Source: a virus. Taken from it: a stretch of 34,190 bases of DNA. Under the pieces are notes generated by a model. That model saw only the letters and a list, made by a program, of their open reading frames with translations. It was not told the DNA's origin and ran no database searches. Positions 1-34,190 of this stretch are shown here, piece by piece. A program made the translations under genes and the position numbers. Positions within the stretch are counted from its first letter, which is position 1. Each line of letters opens with the position of its first letter. Location: the IMG/VR virus record IMGVR_UViG_3300030106_000647, positions 1 through 34,190 of that record. One strand, written 5' to 3'.

Positions 1-374
1 ATGTTGTTTTTTGGATAACTTCTATTACCATAATTTGCCTTACCTCCTAATTTGTAATTACCCCCAGAAAGTCTGCTTAAAATTCTTAAAGCAACCCTCA
101 TACCTCCCTTAATGTTTCTTTGCCCCATCCATCTTTGTATTGTGTTAAGATTTGGTATTTTAGCAAATGCAGGATTGTTTACAGCCTTCCAATACGCCAC
201 AGATGATGTTACATTTAAAATACTTACATCTTTTTTTATGATGTTAAATTTTAATCCTCTACTTAGTCTACCTGTAGCGTTATGCTTTTGAAACTTTAAC
301 TCATCTTGCAATCCCTTTCTTAGCATATCACCAACACTATGTAGTGTTCTATTCGTATGTTTAAATGCTTTCAT
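1..374 (-). CDS. Neck/tail-completion protein, second allele, 3' truncated by the window edge
   Basis: ATG at 374 overlaps the TAA of the upstream structural gene (TAATG). About 124 codons are present and the frame is open to base 1, so the C-terminus is missing. The first ~75 residues are nearly identical to the complete gene at 33633-34133: shared stretches include HNATGRLSRGLK and SSVAYWKAVNNPAFAK. After PNL the two diverge: this copy reads NTIQRWMGQRNIKGG and then a Gly/Tyr/Asn-rich segment. The family resembles HK97 gp10-like proteins, which sit at the head-tail junction. I infer that this is a strain variant left at the contig end rather than a second gene in one genome, because the flanking 77 bp are identical to the window's right end. 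Confidence 0.8.
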   Translation of the reverse strand, partial: MKAFKHTNRTLHSVGDMLRKGLQDELKFQKHNATGRLSRGLKFNIIKKDVSILNVTSSVAYWKAVNNPAFAKIPNLNTIQRWMGQRNIKGGMRVALRILSRLSGGNYKLGGKANYGNRSYPKNN

Positions 375-431
375 TATGTGTTTAGTGCTTCGTTACCAAA
401 ACTTCTTCTTAAAACTTTGTGTGCATTACCA
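355..431. repeat. 77-bp direct terminal repeat, left copy
   Basis: These 77 bases are identical to 34114-34190, the last bases of the window. The first mismatch is at 354 (c) versus 34113 (t). The repeat spans the end of the 240-aa structural gene and the start of the neck gene. It indicates a circular or circularly permuted molecule. Seventy-seven is also a common assembler k-mer, so its exact length may be artificial. Confidence 0.9.
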
Positions 432-1096
432 CTTTTATCTTCTGCATATATTGGTGCAAGAAAATTTTCTTTATGCTGTACAGTTACATTGCAAATACTT
501 GCTGTTTGTGCTGAGGTTTCGCTTGTTGTAAAATACAAGACAAGAATATCATTAGCAGTTACAGCAGTAAAAGTAGATGTTATTAACGCTGTGCTAGTTC
601 TTGTAACAGGGTATGTTATAGTTTTAGTAGAGATTAAATCAAATGTATCTGATTTTGGTGAGTAGACATTTACATATAAACTACCTGTGCCTGTATGTAT
701 TGATGTTAAAACCCTAATTTCATATTCAGTTCCAGCGTCTAAAGACATCATTTGATAAGCCCCACTATAAGAAGGATAAATCTCTCCCATTTGACCATTA
801 AAAGTAAAAAGTCCATGTGCACTTGTTGGTGCTGTAGTTCCACTATAAGACCCTCCTAAATCTGTATGATAACGCATCCATTGACCTGCTGAGGTTTGTG
901 GTGCATTGACTAAAGCATCTATATGTGGGTCGTCTGCTGAAGAGCCTACTGTATGGTCTGGGTCTGAAGTTAGTTGATTTACATAAGAAAACGCATCACC
1001 CCAGTTAACATACTCACCATTATAGTTGTCTATTGAACTAAAAACCTCTAGTCCACTCATGTTTGCTGTACCTCTTGAAGTTATATTTACTGTCAT
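374..1096 (-). CDS. Minor structural protein with beta-sandwich/carbohydrate-binding-like character
   Basis: 240 aa. I do not recognise a named family. The protein is rich in Ser, Thr, Gly and Tyr and has alternating hydrophobic patterns typical of beta-sandwich modules of phage tails, for example YEIRVLTSIHTGTGSLYVNV near residues 125-145. It lies between the 1075-aa tail protein (18 bp upstream) and the neck gene, with which it shares a TAATG junction, so it is translated within the tail operon. A role as a minor tail or adsorption component is inferred from position and composition only. Its last 18 residues are repeated at the right end of the window. Confidence 0.65.
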   Translation of the reverse strand: MTVNITSRGTANMSGLEVFSSIDNYNGEYVNWGDAFSYVNQLTSDPDHTVGSSADDPHIDALVNAPQTSAGQWMRYHTDLGGSYSGTTAPTSAHGLFTFNGQMGEIYPSYSGAYQMMSLDAGTEYEIRVLTSIHTGTGSLYVNVYSPKSDTFDLISTKTITYPVTRTSTALITSTFTAVTANDILVLYFTTSETSAQTASICNVTVQHKENFLAPIYAEDKSGNAHKVLRRSFGNEALNT

Positions 1097-1114
1097 AATT
1101 TTTATTATATTTTA

Positions 1115-4100
1115 CTATTCTGCTGACAATGTGCCAATCTCACCGACTCCATTATCGTTATAATCATAAATAGAAACCCCCCAGTTACTTGGTGTAGCAC
1201 CATTACCAGTACCCAATGCAGGTGTTGATGCTGCAAATGCACCTAATTCTAGCCATTGAACTAATTCTACTTTTGTAGTTTTGTTGTCGTTTGGAAAATA
1301 ATCTATAACTCTGTTTATTCTCCAATAAACACCATCTATATATACTAATTTTCTAAAATCTAAATTTACTATATCTGAAATCTTTAAATCAATATAAGCA
1401 GTCCGAACTCTAGGGTTTAACACCATCATTTGAAACATATTTTTATAATAAGTCTCATAAAGACCTTTTCCTGCCTCTGGAGACCCATAAGTATCAGTAG
1501 CAGGGTCATAATTCTTTCGCCACACATTACCATATGATAAAACAGGACTGCTAGTGCTAAACCTGTCAATAGATGTTGCTTGTGGATAAACGCCACCTAA
1601 ATAATAAGGTGCACCAATAGAACTAGATGATGGCGGTGGATTGGCTGCCGCAAAAGTTGAGCCTTGAATTAAGTCAAGATTTCCATTAGCCCATGTTTGT
1701 ACGTCAACAAATTTTGTGCTTGCAGTTTGTGCGTCAGTTAAAGTTGGAGAGTATTTATTCCAATACAAAAGTCTTGGTTGGAAATCAAATCCTTTTGGAA
1801 CACTATCTCTACTAGAAGCATCGCTGCTTTGAACCTCCCATAAGCAACCAGAATAATGAGGGTCACTAGAATATGTGCCTTGCGTGTCAAAATCTCTTCC
1901 ATTATAAGTACCTGCAAAAAATGGGTTCTCAAAAATACTGTCTCCTCTTTCAAACTCAGAAGGCAGTTCTTCTATGTATGGGTATTCATCTTCAACCCCC
2001 TTAAAGTATGCTAACCCTCTATGTTTAACCTGTGCATCTTTTGAATCACTTTTATATTTGTAAACAACATTTCTTTTTATGTTGTTTTTAATAAATTTAT
2101 CATTTATTTGCTTGCTTCTATCCAACTTTGCTGTCCAATCTAAAGCCTCTCCATATTTTTTGTAAAAATCATTAAAAGGTTCTATTGTAACAACTTTATT
2201 TAATTGGTCAGTAGAAATTTTAAGATTAAAAGCGTGAGCAACTCCTCTAACAAAATCTATTTGTTTATGTTCAGGCTCAATCACATCTTTTAAATTATAA
2301 GGCTGACCAAATGCAACCAACTTAGGGGCTAGACGTATCTGAAACAAACTAGATGATTTTGCAGCAAAAAAATGATACAATCCAAATGGCAGAGTATCAG
2401 GTGCTGAGGCATCAGTTATCTGAGCCCCAAAAGTTAATCTAATTTTATCACCTTTATTTAAAAACAATTCACTTCCATCGCTACCAACTTCTATATCATA
2501 GTGAGATTTAAAACCAGACCCTGAAGGCTTATTTTCATTAACGCTTGCCCCATTACTAATATTTGTTGGATGATGTGTTTGTTCTGAAGATTCTAAAATA
2601 TTCCACGATGATTGTCCTACTGTTTTAACTTCTAGGTTTATTGCTGACTTTGTTTCATGCACATCTTTAGCGGCTAGACCTGACCCACGAAATGCCCTTG
2701 CGACCCTGCTCATAATACCTGTCAGTTGAATAGTGTAGTAGCCATACTCTCCAATAGTTATTTCATCTGTACTTGCATCTAAAGATGTACTTGCCTCTAA
2801 ACTTATGGTAAGATTACTTGTGCTTAAATCAACCACCTGCCTACTAGAGCCTGTTAAATGCAATGTGCCTTCGCTTTTCTTAATAGTAGAAGCAAAAAAC
2901 TTACCTATATTGTTTTCTGAAATCTGCACTTCAAAAGGAACTCCAGCAGAATTTGTAGTCCCTGCTGGATTACTTGCACTACTGGAGATACTATTTGTTG
3001 TACTTGTCACTCCATTAGTAAGTGTTGATTCAAAAGAATTTTCTCGGTATAAAGCATCACTACTTTCGTTGTTTCTTTTAAAGTTTGGTAGCAGCCAAAC
3101 TAATTTTTTAAACATAGACTGATTCATAAAGTCTGAAGATATACTATATCCTTGTTCATGAAATATTTTCTCTAAAGTTGTTTTTACAAATATTGCTGGT
3201 CGCCAATCTGATTGAGGTAAAGTGCCAAAAAGGTCTCCATTGTTATTATACCCAGCATAACTTGACGAACCAAAATTGTTACCACCTCTCATATAAAAGT
3301 CATTTCTGGTGTCAAACAATTGTATTGTTTTATCCTCGCCACCTATATTATAGTTACCATAAGAAACTATAGGGTAAACCATCGCAGGTGCTGACGCATT
3401 TGTAGCCGCATCACAATCTTCGTATTGCCAAGTAGCCATAATTTTAGTTTTATTGTACTCTAAATCTTCATAGGTACTTCCCCAGTCAAGGTCTTTAAGA
3501 AAGGCATTTGATATTGATTTAGACCATCCTAAATTGTTACCAAAAAAAACACAGTCATAATAATTTGGTGTTTTACCATAAGCCCCAACACCCTTTACTC
3601 TTAAACTACCTACTAGCGAATAAAAATCATTAACAAGTATTCTACATGGCATCTCTCTAGTTGCAGATTTTTTTTGAGTTAATATATAATCAAGGTCATC
3701 ATTATAGTTAGGTAAATCAGTTGTCTTAGGGTCGTATATGTGTTGAAATATGTTATTGTTGTTTTTTGTTGCAGGTATTTTAAATGTTTTGCTGTAATCA
3801 CCAGTAGTAGCAGTTATATCTCTTATGTCAGAGATTTGAAAGGTTAATGCTAGAGGAAAGTCTGTGTGGTCGGTTACATCTAAACTACCTACAATACTAT
3901 TTTTCCAATCAATGCCACTAATTTCTGATACGTGTATGTAGTCTATCTCACCATCCCAATCGTTTTGACAGGCAATACTTAATTTATCTGTATTTTGCGA
4001 CCCCTGAACCCATTGATATGTTATAAAATTGTTACCAGTTTGACTATTATTAAATCCATTAGCGTTACCTGCTAAGTGATTTGCTAGAATTATACTTCCT

Positions 4101-4342
4101 TGTGTTACATTAACGATTGGCATTTTTATCTGGTATGTTTTACCCTGCTCAAAAGTAATATTTGTATATTGTAAGTAGTCAAAAGCACTCTGATTAGTGC
4201 CATGACTTGCCTTTCCCCCTGATATAGTCCAACTACCACCAGTAGTCCAATCAGTTGAGGTGCTAAACTCACTATTAGAAATCATTTCATTCCCTCTAAC
4301 CTGTCCAAAAGTATAATCTAAAACTTCTATCTTTACAGCCAT
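1115..4342 (-). CDS. Large tail protein (tail hub/tip type) with an N-terminal carbohydrate-binding-like insertion
   Basis: 1075 aa. From about residue 145 it carries a pattern I associate with tail-hub proteins of Bacteroidota phages: PLALTFQISDIRDI followed by YSKTFKIPATKNNNN (residues ~160-195). The C-terminal part (~965-1035) is a beta-rich region with VYIDGVYWRINRVIDYFP. Residues ~18-140 look like an inserted jelly-roll module of CBM_4_9 type (NSEFSTSTDWTTGGSW, then SGGKASHG), which normally binds sugars. The gene follows the 606-aa tail protein by 3 bp and precedes the 240-aa structural gene. The probable role is distal tail/host-recognition hub. The fold assignment is from pattern recognition, and the exact position in the tail is inferred. 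Confidence 0.7.
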   Translation of the reverse strand: MAVKIEVLDYTFGQVRGNEMISNSEFSTSTDWTTGGSWTISGGKASHGTNQSAFDYLQYTNITFEQGKTYQIKMPIVNVTQGSIILANHLAGNANGFNNSQTGNNFITYQWVQGSQNTDKLSIACQNDWDGEIDYIHVSEISGIDWKNSIVGSLDVTDHTDFPLALTFQISDIRDITATTGDYSKTFKIPATKNNNNIFQHIYDPKTTDLPNYNDDLDYILTQKKSATREMPCRILVNDFYSLVGSLRVKGVGAYGKTPNYYDCVFFGNNLGWSKSISNAFLKDLDWGSTYEDLEYNKTKIMATWQYEDCDAATNASAPAMVYPIVSYGNYNIGGEDKTIQLFDTRNDFYMRGGNNFGSSSYAGYNNNGDLFGTLPQSDWRPAIFVKTTLEKIFHEQGYSISSDFMNQSMFKKLVWLLPNFKRNNESSDALYRENSFESTLTNGVTSTTNSISSSASNPAGTTNSAGVPFEVQISENNIGKFFASTIKKSEGTLHLTGSSRQVVDLSTSNLTISLEASTSLDASTDEITIGEYGYYTIQLTGIMSRVARAFRGSGLAAKDVHETKSAINLEVKTVGQSSWNILESSEQTHHPTNISNGASVNENKPSGSGFKSHYDIEVGSDGSELFLNKGDKIRLTFGAQITDASAPDTLPFGLYHFFAAKSSSLFQIRLAPKLVAFGQPYNLKDVIEPEHKQIDFVRGVAHAFNLKISTDQLNKVVTIEPFNDFYKKYGEALDWTAKLDRSKQINDKFIKNNIKRNVVYKYKSDSKDAQVKHRGLAYFKGVEDEYPYIEELPSEFERGDSIFENPFFAGTYNGRDFDTQGTYSSDPHYSGCLWEVQSSDASSRDSVPKGFDFQPRLLYWNKYSPTLTDAQTASTKFVDVQTWANGNLDLIQGSTFAAANPPPSSSSIGAPYYLGGVYPQATSIDRFSTSSPVLSYGNVWRKNYDPATDTYGSPEAGKGLYETYYKNMFQMMVLNPRVRTAYIDLKISDIVNLDFRKLVYIDGVYWRINRVIDYFPNDNKTTKVELVQWLELGAFAASTPALGTGNGATPSNWGVSIYDYNDNGVGEIGTLSAE

Positions 4343-4345
4343 ATT

Positions 4346-6166
4346 TTAATTTCTTTGTGTTATAACTTTATGAGACAACGTGTATTCTATGTTAAAACTA
4401 ACCAAACCTATTTCTTGATTTACAGTTTCAACATCGCTATTTGTTATTATTACTGGTATATATTCTTTTGTTGATGGTCTTAGGTAAGGGTTTCTTTCTT
4501 TTCCCTGACTTGTAGCATCGGTATCCATTTCTATCCATACGTTAGGAGACAACATCATTTTTGACAGCCACTTAGAATCAGTATCATTTAAAGGCTCTGT
4601 ATAAACACTTTGAGTTTTTTCTGCATTTACATTTAACACTTCTCTACCTCCCTTATATATATCACCACCTCTCATTGTGTCTGAATGATAACGAGTGTTG
4701 TCTGTAATAGTGCTAGATGAATGAGCATTTGAAGTGCCTGTTCTATCTTTGTTGCTTTGATACCACGTTCTATCTGTGCTATTTCTTTCTATTATGCCCT
4801 TACCTATAGAATAGCCCTCTGCAATATTTCTCTTGCAAGTATAACTATCTGTAGCACCTAAATCATTAAGCCAATGAAATCTTACAAATCCATAAGGTAT
4901 TTTTGCATCTTCCCTATCTATAGAATAATATCTATATTCAGATGTTCTTCTATAGAGCGCTGTATCATCAAGCGAAAACCTTCTGAGGCTAACTCTGTAG
5001 TAAACTGTTGATGATGTTATTGGAGTGCTTGTACCATACGCAGACCAATGGTCAGCAATAGCACCAGTACCACTAGAATCATAAGTTTTTAAACTAGCCC
5101 CATTATTTATATATTCTGGAGATATGTTTTGAGTAAACATACCATCTTGGTTTGTTGCAAAATAATCATCACTAGCATCTACCACAATTAAATTATCTTC
5201 AAAGTCACGCACATAAAACTGATTTTCTGTACTACCACCAGCAGTAAACGTTTCTACATACATACCCATTGCTCTTACGCTATCATTGCCAGTCCCCCCT
5301 ATGTTATCTGAATCTGCCTCTTTGATATAAAAGTTTAAATATTCAGCCTCCTCATCTATTCTAATTGGTTTTTTTGCAGGCACAGAAGAGTCGGTAGAAC
5401 TGTTTTCATATCTTGACAAGAACTTGTATGCGTTATATGTTGAACTTGACGAACTATCTTGCATTATATAATCGTATAGATATAGTTTGTCTTGTTCAAA
5501 TTGATTTACAGAATTAATATATGAAACATTATATGAAGTTTTTATGTCTGTAGCAACAGTAACCTCAACTATTTGTCCTGAAGCATTTATGACATATGGG
5601 ATTGCCTTAACCCTTACCCTTCTATATGTCCCGTTTAACGAAACATTAAAATTACTTATTGGTTGACCACCTGTAGACTGTGTGTTTGACAAAACATTAT
5701 CTTGCATTATAGCACCCCCATTCATTCCACCATATTTAGTGCTTTGCCATGTTCCCTTACCTATTGGGCATAGACTGTATGATAGTTGGTCTGAAACTAT
5801 TTGATGTATGTCTATTGTAAATCTATGGTTAAAAGCAGCAGTTTCATCATTATATTTTTTATTTACAATATCTCTAGTCTTACATATAGTTGCTATTGTT
5901 GTATAATTACCATCCCCTTTTAGTATTTGAATATTAAATTTAATATATACTACGTCTCCCTCTGCACTAGCAGAAACATACGACCCTGCTGAAGGCTCTA
6001 AATCTTCTGTAAGACCTGGTTTTGACCATACTATTTGGTATCTTAAAGGTTCATTTGCACTTTTTAAAAAATTGTCTCTGTTATCCCAAAAAGCACCAGC
6101 CAAATCACTATTATTAAATTCTAATGGAACAATACCCCATTTTACACTTCCATTTACACCTGCCAT
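4346..6166 (-). CDS. Tail structural protein (distal tail/tip region)
   Basis: 606 aa. It begins MAGVNGSVKWGIVPLEFNNSD and has beta-rich, Tyr/Ser/Asn-rich composition with long low-complexity Ser stretches around residue 237. No catalytic motif is visible. Position between the LamG-tailed protein (6170-7348, 3 bp away) and the tail-hub protein (3 bp away) places it in the tail-tip cluster. Such tight spacing suggests co-translation with its neighbours. I call it structural from context and composition. Whether it is a distal tail protein, a fibre or a baseplate-like component cannot be decided from sequence alone. Confidence 0.65.
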   Translation of the reverse strand: MAGVNGSVKWGIVPLEFNNSDLAGAFWDNRDNFLKSANEPLRYQIVWSKPGLTEDLEPSAGSYVSASAEGDVVYIKFNIQILKGDGNYTTIATICKTRDIVNKKYNDETAAFNHRFTIDIHQIVSDQLSYSLCPIGKGTWQSTKYGGMNGGAIMQDNVLSNTQSTGGQPISNFNVSLNGTYRRVRVKAIPYVINASGQIVEVTVATDIKTSYNVSYINSVNQFEQDKLYLYDYIMQDSSSSSTYNAYKFLSRYENSSTDSSVPAKKPIRIDEEAEYLNFYIKEADSDNIGGTGNDSVRAMGMYVETFTAGGSTENQFYVRDFEDNLIVVDASDDYFATNQDGMFTQNISPEYINNGASLKTYDSSGTGAIADHWSAYGTSTPITSSTVYYRVSLRRFSLDDTALYRRTSEYRYYSIDREDAKIPYGFVRFHWLNDLGATDSYTCKRNIAEGYSIGKGIIERNSTDRTWYQSNKDRTGTSNAHSSSTITDNTRYHSDTMRGGDIYKGGREVLNVNAEKTQSVYTEPLNDTDSKWLSKMMLSPNVWIEMDTDATSQGKERNPYLRPSTKEYIPVIITNSDVETVNQEIGLVSFNIEYTLSHKVITQRN

Positions 6167-6169
6167 ATC

Positions 6170-7348
6170 TTAATATATTTTATATTTTAAATTTAGATAG
6201 CCCACAACATCATTTATCTCTGCATCTGTTAATGCTCTATCATAAATTATTAATTCGTTAAATTGTCCGCTTAAAAAATTTGCCGCACCAAGCCTACTCC
6301 CAATATAAAAGTTTGCATCATCAAAACTTCCAGTAGAAGTAGTCGCTGTTACTGTTGCTGATTGTTGTGAGTGTTTATTATAAAACGATGTTTTAAAAGA
6401 ATCATGTGTTCCACTATAAGCCCCATCTCTTCTGATAGCACATATATGTGGTATTCCCACTATGCCATCATCTACAAGAATATCATTTGACAGAGTTTGT
6501 GAGCCAGCAATCGTGCAAGAAGTTTGCAGCCTTGTTGCAACGCTAGAGTGCATTTTAATTATTATTGACGCAGAAGTGTGTTCATAATGGAAAACATACT
6601 CTCCAACAGCACCAAATTGACTTACCTCAAAAATTGTAAAACTGTCTGAAATCACTTGTAATCTATTGTCAGAAATTAGCGTTTCTGAAGTTCCATTAAA
6701 AGATAAGTAAGTTTTATCGTTAGCCCCATCATAGCCAATCCTTAATGGTTGCTTACTTGCAGTTTCTTGTATTAAAGTTGCAGGAACAGCATACCCACTT
6801 CTATCACCCAAAGCACTTAATTTTTTAGTAGCAATATTAAATGTAGCGTTGCTATCTGCACTTAACCAACCAACTAAACTAGAGTAGTCTGTTGGGAAGT
6901 TAGATGTAGGTCTAAAGCATTTTGTAAAGCCACTCATTGTAAAGTTTAGTTTTATTTGAACTAATCTGTCATTAGCCACTTCTTTTACTCTTTCTATCTC
7001 TATGCTTTCATCATTTAAGTATGCTGTTACTGTTACATCTTGATAGTTTTTTAAAACTAAATCTAGCCACTCATTTGCTAAATCTTGCAAATTATCCCAT
7101 CTTTGTTGTAGGGTCACTACTGATTGTGATGCTTGAGAATATAAGTTGTAAAAATTTATTTCAAAAGAGTATAATTCTCTTCCCTCATAAATAACTGGTA
7201 TAGTAGATTCTGGTGGTTGTATGAGCATGAGTGGATATTGTATGTCGTGGTCTTGGTTGACCTCGCCTTCATAACCAAACTTGACATCTCCATAAGACCA
7301 TTTGCTCTCAAATACTGTTATTATGTCTGTTAATCTTGTTACTGCCAT
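6170..7348 (-). CDS. Tail protein with C-terminal LamG/concanavalin-like lectin domain
   Basis: 392 aa in two parts. Residues 1-~145 form a compact alpha/beta region (QYPLMLIQPP, LYSFEINFYNLY, RWDNLQDLANEWL) like small tail-terminator or tail-adaptor proteins. Residues ~155-392 are a LamG-like jelly roll: VGWLSADSNATF, LSFNGTSETL, SFTIFEVSQFG, and the closing FNELIIYDRALTDAEI that typifies this superfamily. The ATG shares a TAATG junction with the frameshifted tail chaperone reading frame. The fusion suggests that the lectin domain is displayed on the tail for glycan binding. The N-terminal assignment is weaker than the C-terminal one. Confidence 0.7.
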   Translation of the reverse strand: MAVTRLTDIITVFESKWSYGDVKFGYEGEVNQDHDIQYPLMLIQPPESTIPVIYEGRELYSFEINFYNLYSQASQSVVTLQQRWDNLQDLANEWLDLVLKNYQDVTVTAYLNDESIEIERVKEVANDRLVQIKLNFTMSGFTKCFRPTSNFPTDYSSLVGWLSADSNATFNIATKKLSALGDRSGYAVPATLIQETASKQPLRIGYDGANDKTYLSFNGTSETLISDNRLQVISDSFTIFEVSQFGAVGEYVFHYEHTSASIIIKMHSSVATRLQTSCTIAGSQTLSNDILVDDGIVGIPHICAIRRDGAYSGTHDSFKTSFYNKHSQQSATVTATTSTGSFDDANFYIGSRLGAANFLSGQFNELIIYDRALTDAEINDVVGYLNLKYKIY

Positions 7349-7689
7349 TATTGTAGTGTTATATTGTTTTTATTGTGTATTTTTTCTTGAACAGCAACTT
7401 CATAGTCATTTTTAGCAGTATTCCAACTTAAATAAGTTAAAACCTTATATAAGTCAGTTTTCTTAACACTATCTACATGATTTAATCCATCCATTTTAAA
7501 TACTTTTTTTTCTGCAACCATATACAGGCTATTTAGCCATCCATATGGTTTTATGAACTTGTTGTAGAGTCCAATTGTAGAAACTCTGTTTTTGCCTGTT
7601 CCAACTCCTCTTCTGTTTTCCCCAAAAACATTTGGAAAGTCCTTGTTAATTTTACGCTTTGCATTGTCAAAAAAAAACTGAACTCCCAA
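7348..7689 (-). CDS. Tail assembly chaperone, T-like extension reached by -1 frameshift
   Basis: An open frame in -1 relative to the 226-aa ORF 7551-8231, overlapping it for about 140 bp. In-frame start codons at its beginning are poor; the first recognisable one is TTG. It encodes YGWLNSLYMVAEKKVFKMDG and further helices, and ends in a TAATG junction with the next tail gene. This matches the lambda G/GT arrangement, in which ribosomes slip -1 near the end of G to make a G-T fusion that recruits tape measure and tail tube. A run of nine T (coding strand) at 7669-7677 gives T TTT TTT and T TTT TTG slippery heptamers in the right frame. The predicted fusion is about 294 aa. Confidence 0.7.
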   Translation of the reverse strand: MGVQFFFDNAKRKINKDFPNVFGENRRGVGTGKNRVSTIGLYNKFIKPYGWLNSLYMVAEKKVFKMDGLNHVDSVKKTDLYKVLTYLSWNTAKNDYEVAVQEKIHNKNNITLQ

Positions 7690-8231
7690 ACGATGTCCAT
7701 TGTCAATTTTTTGAATTTATCTGTTTTGGAGGGGATAACATCATCGTCATACTCCTCATCTGCTCTTCTGCATAATATTGCCATTTGCTCTGGCAAAACA
7801 TCAAATCTGCCATGCTTCATCATTTCTATTGTGCTATCTAAGTGTGTAGACTCAATATAATCACCAAAAGTGTTTCTTCTTAAAAATTCTTTTGGAAAAA
7901 AGTACACTTCATCTTCAAACTCAAATCTATCGATGCCTTTTGGCTTATATTCTTCTAATGCACCAGAAAAAGCAGTAATAGCAGCATTTACGCTGTCTAA
8001 ATCTAATTGTTCCATGTCATTTTGAGATAATCCAGTTAAATACATGAAAATATCTCTATTTAACTTTAAAGACTCTACTTCTGAGTGTTCTGGCTCAATA
8101 ATATTACCTTCTTCGTCTTTTTTGTTGTATTTATTGATTATTGCATATAAACCACACCAATATTCTAAAGTCATGTCTTTCCATTCTGTTGGAACGTCAT
8201 ATTCTTTGTCTTGAATTTTAATTTGTATCAT
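7551..8231 (-). CDS. Tail assembly chaperone, G-like
   Basis: 226 aa. The protein starts MIQIKIQDKEYDVPTEWKDM and is largely helical and acidic. Its length, its position in the tail operon and its overlap with a -1 frame fit the gpG-type tail assembly chaperone. Those proteins are made in excess as G and at low level as a G-T fusion. The start is an ATG 3 bp after the stop of the upstream 146-aa gene. If slippage occurs on the T9 run, the first ~187 residues are shared with the fusion and the last ~39 residues are unique to the short form. Sequence similarity to lambda G is not evident; the call rests on architecture. Confidence 0.7.
   Translation of the reverse strand: MIQIKIQDKEYDVPTEWKDMTLEYWCGLYAIINKYNKKDEEGNIIEPEHSEVESLKLNRDIFMYLTGLSQNDMEQLDLDSVNAAITAFSGALEEYKPKGIDRFEFEDEVYFFPKEFLRRNTFGDYIESTHLDSTIEMMKHGRFDVLPEQMAILCRRADEEYDDDVIPSKTDKFKKLTMDIVWEFSFFLTMQSVKLTRTFQMFLGKTEEELEQAKTEFLQLDSTTSS
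7669..7677 (-). promoter_or_regulatory. Probable -1 ribosomal frameshift site (T9 run)
   Basis: The coding (minus) strand reads TTC AGT TTT TTT TTG ACA in the G frame and CAG TTT TTT TTT GAC in the -1 frame. It therefore contains X XXY YYZ heptamers T TTT TTT and T TTT TTG. It lies near the start of the overlap between the two chaperone frames. A sequencing or assembly error in a homopolymer would look similar, but the gene context fits programmed slippage. Confidence 0.55.
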
Positions 8232-8234
8232 TTT

Positions 8235-8675
8235 TTAATTATTAGTTAACTGATTGTCAAAAATATCTTTTAATATTTGCTTTTTTTCTGTTTCGTCTAT
8301 TAACACATCTGCCAATTCACTTGTTATGTTTTCACAATTAAACCCAATCTCCTCTAAACTGTTTTTTAATTCTGAGTCGTTTTCGCCATCTTTTAGTGCA
8401 GTTAAAAAACCAATAGAAGTATAAAACAACATATTTGGTATTAAAAACAAAAATTCTGCTACAGCCCCCTTCTCGATATTGCTTTTATCTATCATAGTAG
8501 CGTGAAAATTGTTAGAGTATAGGTATATTGAATTTAGTATAGTTAAAAAGTCTTGATACTTGCCAGTTTCTGTGTTTTCAGTAGCAAAATACATTAATTT
8601 TTTAATTGTCTTCAAATAACCCTCTATTATTTGCTCATGCTCGTCATTTAGGTAAATAATCTCAATATCTTTCAT
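8235..8675 (-). CDS. Hypothetical protein between terminase and tail chaperone
   Basis: 146 aa from ATG at 8675 (MKDIEIIYLNDEHEQII). An in-frame TTG at 8696 would add seven residues and seems less likely. The protein is helical and acidic. It has a hydrophobic stretch near residues 70-90 (VAEFLFLIPNMLFYTSIGFL) that could be a membrane segment or a buried helix. It lies 3 bp upstream of the G-like chaperone and after a 83-bp gap from the large terminase. I do not recognise the family. Its position suggests a tail or head-tail morphogenesis role, which is unproven. Confidence 0.6.
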   Translation of the reverse strand: MKDIEIIYLNDEHEQIIEGYLKTIKKLMYFATENTETGKYQDFLTILNSIYLYSNNFHATMIDKSNIEKGAVAEFLFLIPNMLFYTSIGFLTALKDGENDSELKNSLEEIGFNCENITSELADVLIDETEKKQILKDIFDNQLTNN

Positions 8676-8703
8676 AATTTTTTGATAATTATTCAAAACT
8701 CAA

Positions 8704-8711
8704 CAAATTTA
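8704..8711 (-). promoter_or_regulatory. Possible -7 promoter element for the tail module
   Basis: The minus strand reads TAAATTTG, matching the Bacteroidota -7 consensus TAnnTTTG, about 30 bp upstream of the ATG at 8675. No TTTG element is found at the expected 17-23 bp distance upstream, so this is only half a promoter. The gap after the large terminase is the one sizeable spacer in this part of the late unit. Confidence 0.25.
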
Positions 8712-8758
8712 CACTCATTACTCTAATTTTTTTCATAATTTTTAAACAAACTGAAAAA

Positions 8759-10204
8759 TTAATTAAAATAAACGATTTTCCCTGTTCCACTACCCCAAAT
8801 CTCCTTATTTACTGCCATAACTAAGCAATCTACCATATCATCATGCTTTGCTGAGGGAAATTTAGTTAATTGGTCTAAAAACTCTTCATTCCATTTACCA
8901 CTAAGCAAACTTACCCTACCACTTTCTAAAGATGCACTAATATCGCTTACTCTTGCTACCTTGTCTTTAGTTGGCGGCTTATCTTCTTTTACATTTAGTC
9001 CAGTTTCTCTTACTAATGTTTGCACTATAGACTTACCAGACGCTTTTGGTTCTACATATATTCTACTTTTATTTGTGTAACCATTCTTTTTTACCCACTC
9101 TGGTATAAACTTTACAAGTTCTGGAAACTCTTTTCTAACATTTACACAGTCTACTATTTGCCACTTGTTCTCTACGTAAGTATATGCTAGTAGTGCTGAG
9201 GGGTCATTTTTTTGATTTGCAGTATACGCTGGGTCTATAATAAAGTTTACTGTTGCTTGTTCTTTTCTAAATCTATCTATCTTAAACCAATCTCTATGTA
9301 TCATCCCACTATCTAGGGGTGTTGGTGTTTGTTGCAGTTGTCCAGCATAGCCATAAGTACCCAAAGCGTTTTTATAATCATCTAAAACTTTTTGACTAAA
9401 TCTTTCTTCCCAAAATAAACCATTCTCTTTGTTATAAAATTGAACTAATGATTTTGGTTTAATATTTCCATCATGACTTGTTGCAGGTATGCATATGTGT
9501 TTATAACCAAGTCTTGTTTCTTTGTCTAACAAGAATCCACTCAAGTCCTCTTCATGTACTCTTTGCATAATAATTATTCTCACTCCAATATCTGCTTGAT
9601 TTAATCTTGAGTAAAATGTTGTCCTATACCACTCATTTGCATTATCTCTTTCTGTTGCTGAGTTTGCCATTTGTGGTGATAGAGGGTCATCAACAATTAA
9701 GAAGTCTCCACCCTGTCCAGTTACTGTACCCCCAACAGATGTTGCTCTTCGCATACCAATATGATTATTCTCATATCTTTCTTTTAGGTTTTGGTCTTTT
9801 TTAATAAAGAAAACATCAGACCATCTTTTCTTAAACCAATCGCTAAATATTATATCTCTTGATTTAGTTGATAGTTCTATAGACAGCGTTGCAGAATAAG
9901 AAGATGTGATAAATCTTAGTTTTGGTGATTTTATCCAAGCCCATACTGGAAACATAACAGTTACTATCAAAGATTTTGTACTACGAAAGGGTACGTTAAT
10001 AATTATATCTTTTGTTTTTGGTTTCTGTGCTATTATTCTCTCGCACTCTGCTTGCAATACATCGCATATATATTTATGATGCCAATTAGTAGATAGTGGT
10101 ACTGCTGGTTCTACTACGTGCCAAGCCTGTTTGAAAAACTCATAGAAACTCATCTCGCAAAGTTTCTTTTCAAGAGCAAACTTTAAAAGTTTTTTATTCG
10201 TCAT
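8759..10204 (-). CDS. terL: Terminase large subunit (TerL)
   Basis: 481 aa. This is the motor and nuclease that packages DNA into the prohead. An atypical Walker A is at residues 72-78 (PFRSTKS) and a Walker B hydrophobic strand with acidic pair at 168-174 (FLIVDDP). The RNase H-like nuclease has candidate metal ligands at D324 (IIDPAYT), E385 (YVEPKASGKS) and D455/D456/D459 (KHDDMVD). Length is normal for the family. The start ATG overlaps the stop of the small-subunit gene by 11 bp, so the two are translationally coupled. Usual phages place portal directly downstream; here tail genes follow instead. Confidence 0.95.
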   Translation of the reverse strand: MTNKKLLKFALEKKLCEMSFYEFFKQAWHVVEPAVPLSTNWHHKYICDVLQAECERIIAQKPKTKDIIINVPFRSTKSLIVTVMFPVWAWIKSPKLRFITSSYSATLSIELSTKSRDIIFSDWFKKRWSDVFFIKKDQNLKERYENNHIGMRRATSVGGTVTGQGGDFLIVDDPLSPQMANSATERDNANEWYRTTFYSRLNQADIGVRIIIMQRVHEEDLSGFLLDKETRLGYKHICIPATSHDGNIKPKSLVQFYNKENGLFWEERFSQKVLDDYKNALGTYGYAGQLQQTPTPLDSGMIHRDWFKIDRFRKEQATVNFIIDPAYTANQKNDPSALLAYTYVENKWQIVDCVNVRKEFPELVKFIPEWVKKNGYTNKSRIYVEPKASGKSIVQTLVRETGLNVKEDKPPTKDKVARVSDISASLESGRVSLLSGKWNEEFLDQLTKFPSAKHDDMVDCLVMAVNKEIWGSGTGKIVYFN

Positions 10205-27342: not shown

Positions 27343-27936
27343 TTATGTTGTAGTTGCTGTTAAAGCAGATGTATCAATCACAAGACCTGCACCACTTGCT
27401 GGGTCATACTGTCTTGGAAGTTCAAATTGTCTAGCCATTAAGTTTACAGTAATACCATTTTCATCTGAATACGCAGCACCTGTTCCACCCTCCATACTTG
27501 CTAAATTTAAGAAAGTTTGGTTTTTTGAAGGAACATCTTCGTTTGCATATTTTTCACTTAAGCCTATAACTAATTTTTCATCATTTGTAGTTACAACTAT
27601 TGCCATCATACAAGTGTTAAGCATTGTTTGTAATTCATGCATCCTAGAATTGTTTATTTGTGGTATCATAAAATTAAGCCCACACTCAAATGCTGTTGAG
27701 CCATTTTCTTTGGTTGCATTTATTGTTAACGCAGCAGTTTCATTTTTAAATTCAAAAACAAACCAACTCGCTGTTGAACCACCACCACTAACAATCTTTG
27801 TTACATCATGCTTGCCTGCTGCATTACTAAAAGTTACATCGTCATCAGAAGCAAAACTTCTGAGGCATATTTGCTTTATCCCTCCTGTGCTTTGTAGGGC
27901 TGTACAATCTACGCCTATACCTTTATCTATTGCCAT
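27343..27936 (-). CDS. Major tail tube protein
   Basis: 197 aa. Features like those of tail-tube proteins of Bacteroidota siphophages: MAIDKGIGVDCTALQSTGGI, then KQICLRSFAS, a mid-domain FVFEFKNETAALTINATKEN, and RMHELQTMLNTCMMAIVVTT. The alternating strands with one central helix fit the tube fold. It is encoded after the major capsid gene, separated by a hairpin that may set transcript levels. Tube identity is inferred from pattern and size; a fold prediction would settle it. Confidence 0.65.
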   Translation of the reverse strand: MAIDKGIGVDCTALQSTGGIKQICLRSFASDDDVTFSNAAGKHDVTKIVSGGGSTASWFVFEFKNETAALTINATKENGSTAFECGLNFMIPQINNSRMHELQTMLNTCMMAIVVTTNDEKLVIGLSEKYANEDVPSKNQTFLNLASMEGGTGAAYSDENGITVNLMARQFELPRQYDPASGAGLVIDTSALTATTT

Positions 27937-30942: not shown

Positions 30943-31021
30943 TTGTTAGCATTCCTAAAGTTAATACTGCGATTAATAGTGTTAAGTATATTATATACAC
31001 TCTTTTATCTTCTGTACTCAT
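30932..31021 (-). CDS. 29-aa membrane microprotein with C-terminal Cys
   Basis: ATG 31021 shares a TAATG junction with the tape-measure stop, and TGA 30932-30934 lies within the next gene (11-bp overlap). It begins MSTEDKRVYIIY and has one hydrophobic span (LTLLIAVLTLGML) ending in Cys. Its size and layout resemble the 11264-11353 ORF. Coupled start and stop overlaps support it. Confidence 0.5.
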   Translation of the reverse strand: MSTEDKRVYIIYLTLLIAVLTLGMLTNVC

Positions 31022-33621
31022 TATATTTTTGCGTCTGATTCAACAACAGAAACCTCTCTTTGTACACTTGTTATGTCAGACTCAACTACTACTACTTTAC
31101 TAGCACCACCCATAGCACCCATCATCTGGTTCTGACCTAAAACATTAAATTCTTGTTGGCTAAATGAAGGTTGGTTTATCATACCACCATCTGCAAACTT
31201 AACGCCACCTCCTGCTGCGTTCATTGCTGATAATTGATTTCTAAACATTGCTGTACTTCTTTTATTTATAACAGCCTCACCACCTTCTAGTTCTACTACT
31301 CTACCACCTACTGCAAACTTCTCACCACCCTGTGCGTGTGACTTGCCATGTACCATACCTCCATTTGCAAACTCTTCTATCACACCTCCATTTGCAAATG
31401 ATATTTGGTCAAAGGCTTTTTCAAAAACACCACTAACTAAACTACCTGCTGCTGCTGATAAAACAACAGCAAGAAATGGATTTGCTGAAAAAGTAGCAGT
31501 TATGTATGCAGAAACCGCTTCCATAATTTTTGCTCTAATGAATTTTTTAGCAGCATCAGATGCTGACTCACCTGACATTGCCGCCCTTTTAATGTCCTCT
31601 GCTAATGAGTCATCTTTTACTTTATTTGAATCTTCTGTTATTTCTTTTTCAACCTGAGCAAATCTTCTTAACAATTCTTCTCTGTCGTTAAATATAAGTT
31701 CTTCTTGCTCTAAAAGAAATCTTAAATTATCAAGTTCTTGTTTTAGTAAGTCTTGCTTTAATTTTGCTGACTCTTCTTCTGACAGATTGCCTTGAATCAT
31801 TTCGTTAAGCCTGAAATTTAACAACTCTTGTTCAACAGAGATTAAATTTTTCTTTTCATCAGCGTTTGCTTTTGTTGAATCTGTATTTTTATCTGTTGCA
31901 CCTGTATTTTCATTAGTTTGATTGGTGTTTTCTTCTTCTTTTTTTGTTGTTTCTCCTAAAGTTATTCCTAATCGCTTTGCTAAGGCGTCTCTATCTTCTG
32001 TTGCTTTATTCAACTCTTCTGTATGTTCTAAAAGTTCTTGATTAGCAAATGAATTCCTTATAACAAATTTGCTTAAATGTTGTAAAGACTTTGACTGTTC
32101 AGAGTGCAACCCTAAAGCACCATTGTCTGCCTCGTTTAACTTTTCTTTTACATGAGTATAATTTTCTGAAGCAGTAGCACCATCTAACAGGCTTATATTG
32201 TGTTTTTCTGACACTATAATTAGTTCATCAAATAAATCATTTTCTGCTTTTATTTGCTTGCTTCTGGCGTCTGCTGCATCTTGAGAAATTCCGTCTAACT
32301 TTTCCTGTTCTTTTTGAAGAACAATCCTATCTATTAATTGGTCATTATATTCTTTTAACCTATCTTTTAGTTCTTTTGTGTTTGTTTTTTCAGTATTTAT
32401 ATTTTTTAAAAAATCTGGGTACTCTTTATTTATTTTTATAATTAACTTGTTTCTATCTTCTTCTTTTATGTTAGTTTCTGTTAGTTGCAAAACAAGCCTA
32501 TTTAAAGCAACTCTTTCTTCGTCTAATTTTTCTGAAACTGGTATTTCTACAAAATCAGTCAGCGTGTTCATAAATGAAGCAAAATTTTCTACAACTCCCT
32601 GTATTTGTTTACCAAAGTTATCTATAAATGCTATTCTAAACCCTTGTGTTGCCGATTCTGCTCTTTTAAAAGAACCCTCTAAAGTGTCACCAACAATTCT
32701 AGCCATTTCTTGAGCAGCACCTGTAGCACCTTCTAACGCATCTCTTAATTCTACAGTTCTTTGTCTACTTGTAATCATCTGCTCAAACGCAGCAGCCTGT
32801 CTTAAATCAACAACTTCCATTATTTCTGCTAGGCTACCACCCTCTTCACTAAAATTTGTTAAAGCAGGGACTAATTCGTCTAAAGAGTGAATTGTTTTAC
32901 CAAAAGATTTTACTAAGTCTGAATTTGGGTCTTGCATTTTAAGCAAGATATTCCTTAAAGATGTACCAGCAATAGATGCTTCAATACCTGCGTCTGATAG
33001 TTGAGCCATAATCGCTGTTGTATCTTCAATAGAAAACCCTGCTGACTTTGCAATAGGCGCAACCTTAGTCATAGCAGTTTGAAACTTTTCAATGTCTAAT
33101 GCAGAACTTGTAAACGCTACAGCCATTACATCTACCACTCTTTGTGTTTCACTTGCATCTAATCCAAAACCTCTTACAGCAGAACCTGCCACTATTGCTG
33201 CTCTTGCTAAGTCACTATCTGTTGCTGTTGCTAACTGTAATGTCGCCTCTTGTGCGTTTAATATTTCTTGTGTGGTAAAACCTAACTTACCATAATTAGT
33301 TTGTAGTTCTGCAACTTGTTGTGCAGTAAAGAATGTAGAACGTCCTAAATCTTGTGCTGATTTTGCTAGTGCTAAAAATTCACTTCTGTTAGCACCTGTA
33401 ATTGCCTTAACTTTAGCCATCTGAAACTCAAAGTCTCTAAAACTTCTTAAAGCACTTCCAACTGCTTGTGTAATTTGTCTAAATGCCGCAACAGCACCTA
33501 AAACACCAGCAGCCATTCTTCCAAAACTCTTAGTTGTTGTTCCTGTTCTTTTCTCTAATCTTTTTAAGTCTTTCTCTCCTTGTACGACTACCTGTACTAC
33601 TATCTTTTCTGTATTTGCCAT
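31021..33621 (-). CDS. Tape measure protein
   Basis: 866 aa; sets tail length and lies inside the tail tube. N-terminal ~350 residues match the tape-measure core: RTGTTTKSFGRMAAGVLGAV, FEFQMAKVKAITGANRSEFL, AVAFTSSALDIEKFQTAMTK, AGIEASIAGTSLRNILLKMQ. The middle is long coiled coil (LLKQELDNLRFLLEQEELIF). The C-terminal end has the usual Gly-rich motifs (FANGGVIEEFANGGMVHG; VVELEGGEAVINKRS). At ~0.15 nm per residue a tail near 130 nm is expected (inference). It follows the neck gene by 11 bp, and a membrane microprotein overlaps its stop. Confidence 0.9.
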   Translation of the reverse strand: MANTEKIVVQVVVQGEKDLKRLEKRTGTTTKSFGRMAAGVLGAVAAFRQITQAVGSALRSFRDFEFQMAKVKAITGANRSEFLALAKSAQDLGRSTFFTAQQVAELQTNYGKLGFTTQEILNAQEATLQLATATDSDLARAAIVAGSAVRGFGLDASETQRVVDVMAVAFTSSALDIEKFQTAMTKVAPIAKSAGFSIEDTTAIMAQLSDAGIEASIAGTSLRNILLKMQDPNSDLVKSFGKTIHSLDELVPALTNFSEEGGSLAEIMEVVDLRQAAAFEQMITSRQRTVELRDALEGATGAAQEMARIVGDTLEGSFKRAESATQGFRIAFIDNFGKQIQGVVENFASFMNTLTDFVEIPVSEKLDEERVALNRLVLQLTETNIKEEDRNKLIIKINKEYPDFLKNINTEKTNTKELKDRLKEYNDQLIDRIVLQKEQEKLDGISQDAADARSKQIKAENDLFDELIIVSEKHNISLLDGATASENYTHVKEKLNEADNGALGLHSEQSKSLQHLSKFVIRNSFANQELLEHTEELNKATEDRDALAKRLGITLGETTKKEEENTNQTNENTGATDKNTDSTKANADEKKNLISVEQELLNFRLNEMIQGNLSEEESAKLKQDLLKQELDNLRFLLEQEELIFNDREELLRRFAQVEKEITEDSNKVKDDSLAEDIKRAAMSGESASDAAKKFIRAKIMEAVSAYITATFSANPFLAVVLSAAAGSLVSGVFEKAFDQISFANGGVIEEFANGGMVHGKSHAQGGEKFAVGGRVVELEGGEAVINKRSTAMFRNQLSAMNAAGGGVKFADGGMINQPSFSQQEFNVLGQNQMMGAMGGASKVVVVESDITSVQREVSVVESDAKI

Positions 33622-33632
33622 ATCTTTATATA

Positions 33633-34133
33633 TTAAAATGCTTCAGTAACATTTGCTTTTGTATTCTTTTTAATTTGTTGTGAAATCATATTTGCAACAT
33701 CTACTCCTACAGATGGTGCTAGTGTTTCTGCAACTTTTTTGCTAAATTTATTTGCTACATAACCTGCAAAGTTTGTTCTTCTTAACCTATTACCCTCTGT
33801 CCAAAAAACATAAGGCTTACCATAATTATTTTTTAATTTTTTAAATATTGAAAAAGCAGAATTTAAAGGCAATCCTTTTGTGCTTACCCATTTTTGTATT
33901 TCTCTTAAATTAGGGGCTTTTGCAAATGCAGGATTGTTTACAGCCTTCCAATACGCAACAGATGAGGTTACATTTAAAATACTTACCCCTTTTTTTATAA
34001 TGTTGTATTTCAGTCCTCTACTTAATCTACCGGTTGCATTGTGCTTTTGTGCTTTAAGTTCATCTTGCAGTCCCTTTCTTAGCATATCACCAACGCTATG
34101 TAGCGTTCTATTTGTATGTTTAAATGCTTTCAT
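33633..34133 (-). CDS. Neck/tail-completion protein (HK97 gp10-like), complete allele
   Basis: 166 aa. N-terminal amphipathic helix (MKAFKHTNRTLHSVGDMLRK), the characteristic NATGRLSRGLKYN, SSVAYWKAVNN, and IQKWVSTKGLPLNS, in line with gp10-like proteins that join head and tail. The second half differs from the partial copy at 1-374. The start overlaps the previous stop as TAATG. In the closed circle this allele is followed by the tape measure. Confidence 0.7.
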   Translation of the reverse strand: MKAFKHTNRTLHSVGDMLRKGLQDELKAQKHNATGRLSRGLKYNIIKKGVSILNVTSSVAYWKAVNNPAFAKAPNLREIQKWVSTKGLPLNSAFSIFKKLKNNYGKPYVFWTEGNRLRRTNFAGYVANKFSKKVAETLAPSVGVDVANMISQQIKKNTKANVTEAF

Positions 34134-34190
34134 TATGTGTTTAGTGCTTCGTTACCAAAACTTCTTCTTAAAACTTTGTGTGCATTACCA
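34114..34190. repeat. 77-bp direct terminal repeat, right copy
   Basis: Exact copy of 355-431. It joins the ends into a circle of about 33.76 kb. Upstream of it (to the left) the sequence is only similar, not identical, to 1-354, because a different neck-gene allele lies there. Confidence 0.9.
34133..34190 (-). CDS. C-terminal end of the 240-aa minor structural protein (partial, duplicate of 374-431)
   Basis: The last 18 codons and stop, identical to the end of the gene at 374-1096, cut off by the window edge. It is not a separate gene: it reflects the circular overlap of the sequence ends. Confidence 0.85.
   Translation of the reverse strand, partial: GNAHKVLRRSFGNEALNT

Follow-up and report, generated by a model that had tools for sequence, protein, structure and literature searches.

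The two ends of the viral contig analyzed here very probably carry two strain alleles of a single gene, a probable tail-completion (neck) gene in which a central cassette has been exchanged. The window, an IMG/VR contig of 34,190 nucleotides, is by this same reading, and with the same high confidence, the whole virus record of a siphophage with a circularly permuted map of ~33.76 kb. The locus occurs in two allelic forms, is single copy in relatives that are circularly permuted with respect to the window, and is mosaic at the cassette.

The contig ends and the circular map

Bases 355-431 and 34114-34190 are identical at 77 of 77 positions, a match whose chance expectation is ~2e-34. The match is bounded by a mismatch directly before it (C at 354 versus T at 34113) and by the contig end directly after it, at 34190, which confirms the identity that the earlier note had reported. 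This stretch is not a terminal repeat present at both contig ends; the right copy sits at the contig end, and the left copy, at which the assembly would pass from two alleles into common sequence, sits 354 bases inside. The conclusion drawn in the earlier note, that the sequence is circular, holds in the sense of a circular map: the 10 relatives whose whole sequences were retrieved line up collinearly with it once circularly permuted, and their contigs end in many different genes. When we compared the ends of 20 relatives, four had an exact overlap (113, 99, 99, and 127 bp), four had an imperfect overlap, and 12 had none. The four imperfect overlaps (G005, L101/L102; G011, L107/L108; G014, L121/L122; G015, L111/L112) reach the contig end at 94-99% identity and represent allelic contig ends at genes other than the neck gene. 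The window is the most diverged case of this kind, with 89% identity over ~305 columns and no match beyond. The genomes of these four relatives are probably complete, and tests of circularity that depend on exact repeats would miss them.

Two forms of the neck gene that differ in a central cassette

Both ends of the window contain a version of the same gene on the minus strand. Allele A (3-374), identified from its ORF and by comparison with B, encodes 124 residues of a probable tail-completion (Ne1-like) protein; its reading frame has no stop codon and remains open at the contig start, and its C terminus is missing because the contig start cuts the 3' end of the gene. Allele B (33633-34133), identified from its ORF, by comparison, and in profile and fold searches, is complete and encodes 166 residues. 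The upstream neighbor (374-1096, minus strand) is a 240-residue gene, recognized in relatives, without a family match in the profile search; the next gene downstream of B (31021-33621, minus strand) encodes the tape-measure protein (PF10145, phrog_1533).

The earlier note described the first halves of the two copies as nearly identical and the second halves as unrelated or strongly diverged. The first of these statements is accurate, as A and B are 95% identical in protein over the first 73 residues and 88% identical in DNA over codons 1-72, with 159-354 resembling 33918-34113. This N-terminal part of A (codons 1-72; 159-374, minus strand) is 98% identical in DNA to one relative (L004) and 96% to another (L003). 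Bases 1-128 gave no DNA alignment with the right end or allele B. The second statement, however, does not extend to the end of the protein. Full-length relatives of the A type are available (L018, 188 residues; L013 and L011, 181 residues; L021, 183 residues), and their last ~60 residues (RRTNFAGYVANKF...) are common to B, which places the variable part in the center. As aligned, A and B differ by a central cassette between conserved N- and C-terminal parts, and what had looked like an unrelated second half is this cassette combined with the truncation by the contig start. The A-type cassette (residues ~73-124 of A; 1-158, minus strand) is closest to that of L018, at 83% DNA identity. The B-type cassette (residues ~73-106 of B; 33815-33917, minus strand) was delimited by protein alignment with relatives; the variable part as a whole covers residues ~73-110 of B and is longer by ~15-20 residues in A types than in B.

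The two forms are alleles of one locus

We collected relatives from two scans of viral contigs, which gave 15 and 77 loci, partly on the same contigs. Every scanned locus has one neck gene followed by the tape-measure gene, and most loci that reach far enough have the 240-residue gene upstream. The neck gene was single copy in all 22 related records searched whole (24-36 kb); in two of the relatives (G019 and G020), a double match reflects a single reading frame matched in two segments. A-type cassettes occur in 19 of 69 distinct proteins, counting A of the window, and A-type and B-type cassettes both sit at the same locus, before the tape-measure gene. Since relatives hold a single copy and both forms occupy one place, A and B are alleles. 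Allelic contig ends are expected to show just this in relatives, a gene that is single copy in each genome with both of its forms at the same place. The two coexisting strains suggested in the earlier note are the best reading of a single-copy gene, a shared locus, and permuted relatives that often have allelic ends themselves. None of the other viral contigs contained an exact match to a 24-base piece taken from the A cassette, which counts against this explanation. Comparison of bases 1-3000 of the window (nucleotide) and of allele B (protein) with 50,697 phage records gave no match.

We infer both the assembler mechanism and the strain origin of A, as follows. At least two strains would have been present in the sample. 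The assembler would have started in the tail-completion allele A of one strain (1-354), merged into shared sequence at the 77-mer (355-431), gone once round the genome, entered through allele B of the other strain (33633-34113), and halted on reaching that 77-mer again. The single gene between the 240-residue gene and the tape-measure gene would then have A and B as its alleles, and the main difference between them would be a central cassette that was replaced when the conserved flanks recombined. A standard k in SPAdes is 77, and the simplest account would be a path through an assembly graph built at k = 77, with entry by one allele and closure by the other. Against the assembler account, the imperfect overlaps of the relatives end in exact runs of 56-137 bp, and some of these lengths are not usual values of k. 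Microdiversity is known to fragment marine phage assemblies that are built with de Bruijn graphs (PMC6487183), and strain variation makes branches at which short-read contigs stop (PMC6487183, PMC11443906). The window resembles such contigs, except that its circular genome map brings both branches into view, one at each end of the same contig.

Allele A might instead be an assembly chimera, in which the A-type cassette of a distant strain was joined to an L004-like N-terminal part; the join would be a 35-bp exact stretch (163-197) common to A and B. Similarity does break sharply at ~158, at a short stretch conserved between the alleles. However, full-length genes in independent contigs (L011, L013, L014, and L018) combine A-type cassettes with similar N-terminal parts, and 35 bp falls short of the 77 that appears to be the k used, leaving a chimera very unlikely. 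A true tandem duplication, which the earlier note had raised as its alternative, would have A and B side by side in one genome, with the assembler breaking in the repeat. Both copies adjoin the 77-bp stretch, and the contig alone is compatible with this arrangement. But no tandem copy appeared in any of the 22 long records or the additional loci, the duplicated segment would also have to take in 57 bp or more from the 3' end of the upstream gene, and the N-terminal part of A is closer to L004 (98%) than to B (88%). We therefore consider a duplication very unlikely. The reading as two strain alleles means that apparent gene duplications at the ends of metagenomic phage contigs can be strain alleles, for which single copy in relatives together with an imperfect end overlap provides a simple test.

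The cassette is exchanged among independent contigs

Pairwise DNA comparisons place a sharp change in relatedness at the cassette. The cassette of A is 49-51% identical to those of L004 and L003, the same relatives that its N-terminal part matches so closely, and allele B is 99% identical to L003 in its remainder but 91% in its N-terminal part. These contrasts gave Fisher p values, computed on counts derived from rounded identities, of 1.6e-25 (A versus L004, N-terminal part against cassette) and 3e-5 (B versus L003). A blastn match between the window and the close relative G001 (94% over 158-10100) begins at the cassette edge, at 158. The same pattern is found between independent contigs away from the window, with DNA identities for N-terminal part, cassette, and tail of 87, 44, and 91% (L006 and L013) and 88, 46, and 92% (L006 and L011). 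In 30-residue windows, the distance correlation with the flanks is ~0.65 in the N-terminal part, 0.09-0.24 in the cassette, and ~0.62 in the tail; saturation of the short, fast cassette adds to this drop, while the pairwise DNA contrasts are independent of saturation. By these comparisons, exchange of the cassette has taken place repeatedly between contigs that are independent of each other, and cassette relatedness follows neither the remainder of the protein nor the N terminus of the tape-measure protein. The modular exchange proposed in the earlier note is thus upheld and recurs in independent contigs, but it involves the central cassette and not the C-terminal half. We also considered a matched module of cassette and tape-measure protein, which was rejected: there was no covariation between the cassette and the tape-measure N terminus (partial rho -0.01).

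Mosaic phage structural genes have sharp intragenic switches between similar and dissimilar sequence, and the neck gene has such a switch within it. Judged from the alignments, this is mosaicism of the ordinary phage type and a modest example, though neatly delimited; unlike the usual mosaic gene, its switch is bounded on both sides to form a small cassette, lies within a conserved structural protein, and recurs across many of the contigs compared. Phase or cassette switching programmed within a single phage lineage, for example by inversion or retro-mutagenesis, would also swap a short cassette between conserved flanks, but it has almost no probability, given that the window contains no second cassette store and only two neck places that match, that the cassettes of different phages fall into diverged families, as ordinary recombination predicts, and that no reverse transcriptase or recombinase was found among the scanned subset of genes.

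Other genes show comparable differences. At 31400-32900, the tape-measure gene is strongly diverged from that of G001 (65% identity over the N-terminal part) although most other genes are 95-100% identical, which makes it, next to the neck gene, another spot of mosaicism. Another mosaic gene (27343-27936) is 66% identical to G001, with neighbors at 97-100%, and 93-95% identical to G002, G005, and G013.

The gene product resembles tail-completion proteins

We examined the protein by profile, sequence, and fold searches. PF04883 (HK97 gp10-like) matches 13 of 28 relatives (best E 0.0003), and phrog_5, annotated as "tail completion or Neck1," matches 6 of 53 (best E 0.00035). The A and B proteins of the window gave no match at E 0.001 in the profile search alone, and a sequence search of the PDB returned nothing relevant. 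The structure models are of modest confidence (pLDDT 69, pTM 0.53-0.55). In the model of B (pLDDT 69, pTM 0.53), a long N-terminal helix is followed by a β-hairpin, short helices, and a long C-terminal helix. Foldseek matched this model to the tail completion protein of 80alpha (9mu2_P, from the SaPI1/80alpha neck structure) with a probability of 0.80 and a TMt of 0.59 but a poor E of 1.2; among the matches listed, this was the sole sensible phage neck match. The A-type model scored below the B model in the fold search.

These profile and model matches indicate that the protein is probably a tail-completion protein (Ne1 / HK97 gp10 / SPP1 gp16.1). The earlier note had called it a neck or head-tail junction protein, which agrees with this assignment on weak to moderate profile and fold evidence. 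The predicted order of elements in B is like that of the Ne1 family (80alpha gp51, SPP1 gp16.1, HK97 gp10, and lambda gpZ), whose fold has a bent N-terminal helix, a β-hairpin, an extended loop, and a C-terminal helix; the gene lies in the tail module, and its size falls inside the Ne1 range of 56-231 residues (PMC11661146, PMC4362835). In contrast to that family, it has a larger central region with an exchangeable cassette, and its sequence match is very weak. The gene order also differs. Ne1 genes are "most frequently" arranged as adaptor, head closure, Ne1, and tail terminator (PMC11661146, PMC4362835), whereas the gene studied here lies between the 240-residue gene and the tape-measure gene, directly before the latter, and not between head-completion and tail-terminator genes. 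Since the source says "most frequently," we take gene order as a usual trait and not a strictly defining one, and our claim is one of resemblance to the Ne1 family and not of settled membership.

A proposed role for the cassette

The tail completion protein of 80alpha caps the DNA end by an extended loop, and its β-hairpin pairs with the N termini of the tape-measure protein (PMC11661146). By analogy, the protein encoded here would act as a monomer that plugs the tail at its upper end, with the DNA end on one side and the tape-measure N termini on the other. The hairpin would fall in the conserved N-terminal part and the cassette between the hairpin and the C-terminal helix, so that the cassette may belong to the DNA-capping loop, facing the DNA end and the connector as in 80alpha gp51. 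That the cassette and the tape-measure N terminus do not covary fits a model in which the hairpin, and not the cassette, pairs with the tape measure. We infer this function and role with caution. A broader proposal, which we rate as rather unlikely, is that in this phage group the loop in contact with the head connector or the end of the packaged DNA diversifies by recombination as a cassette, and that its exchange is independent of the tape-measure N terminus. If true, it would suggest selection for variation at a buried joint of the virion, for example for compatibility with connector variants or for escape from a host system able to sense the ejected end. Covariation could also be used to look for the partners of the exchangeable cassette that this conserved neck protein carries.

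Genome context

The structural genes occupy 8759-33621 and have an unusual order. In the direction of transcription, the terminase is followed by a LamG-domain gene and other long genes, the neck gene, the tape-measure gene, a Clp-type protease, a probable virion structural (capsid?) gene, the portal, and further on a tail-terminator-like gene (phrog_347), which puts the portal after the tape measure. Among the phage records searched, the best match to the terminase (8759-10204) was that of Croceibacter phage P2559Y (45.5%), which suggests a flavobacterial host.
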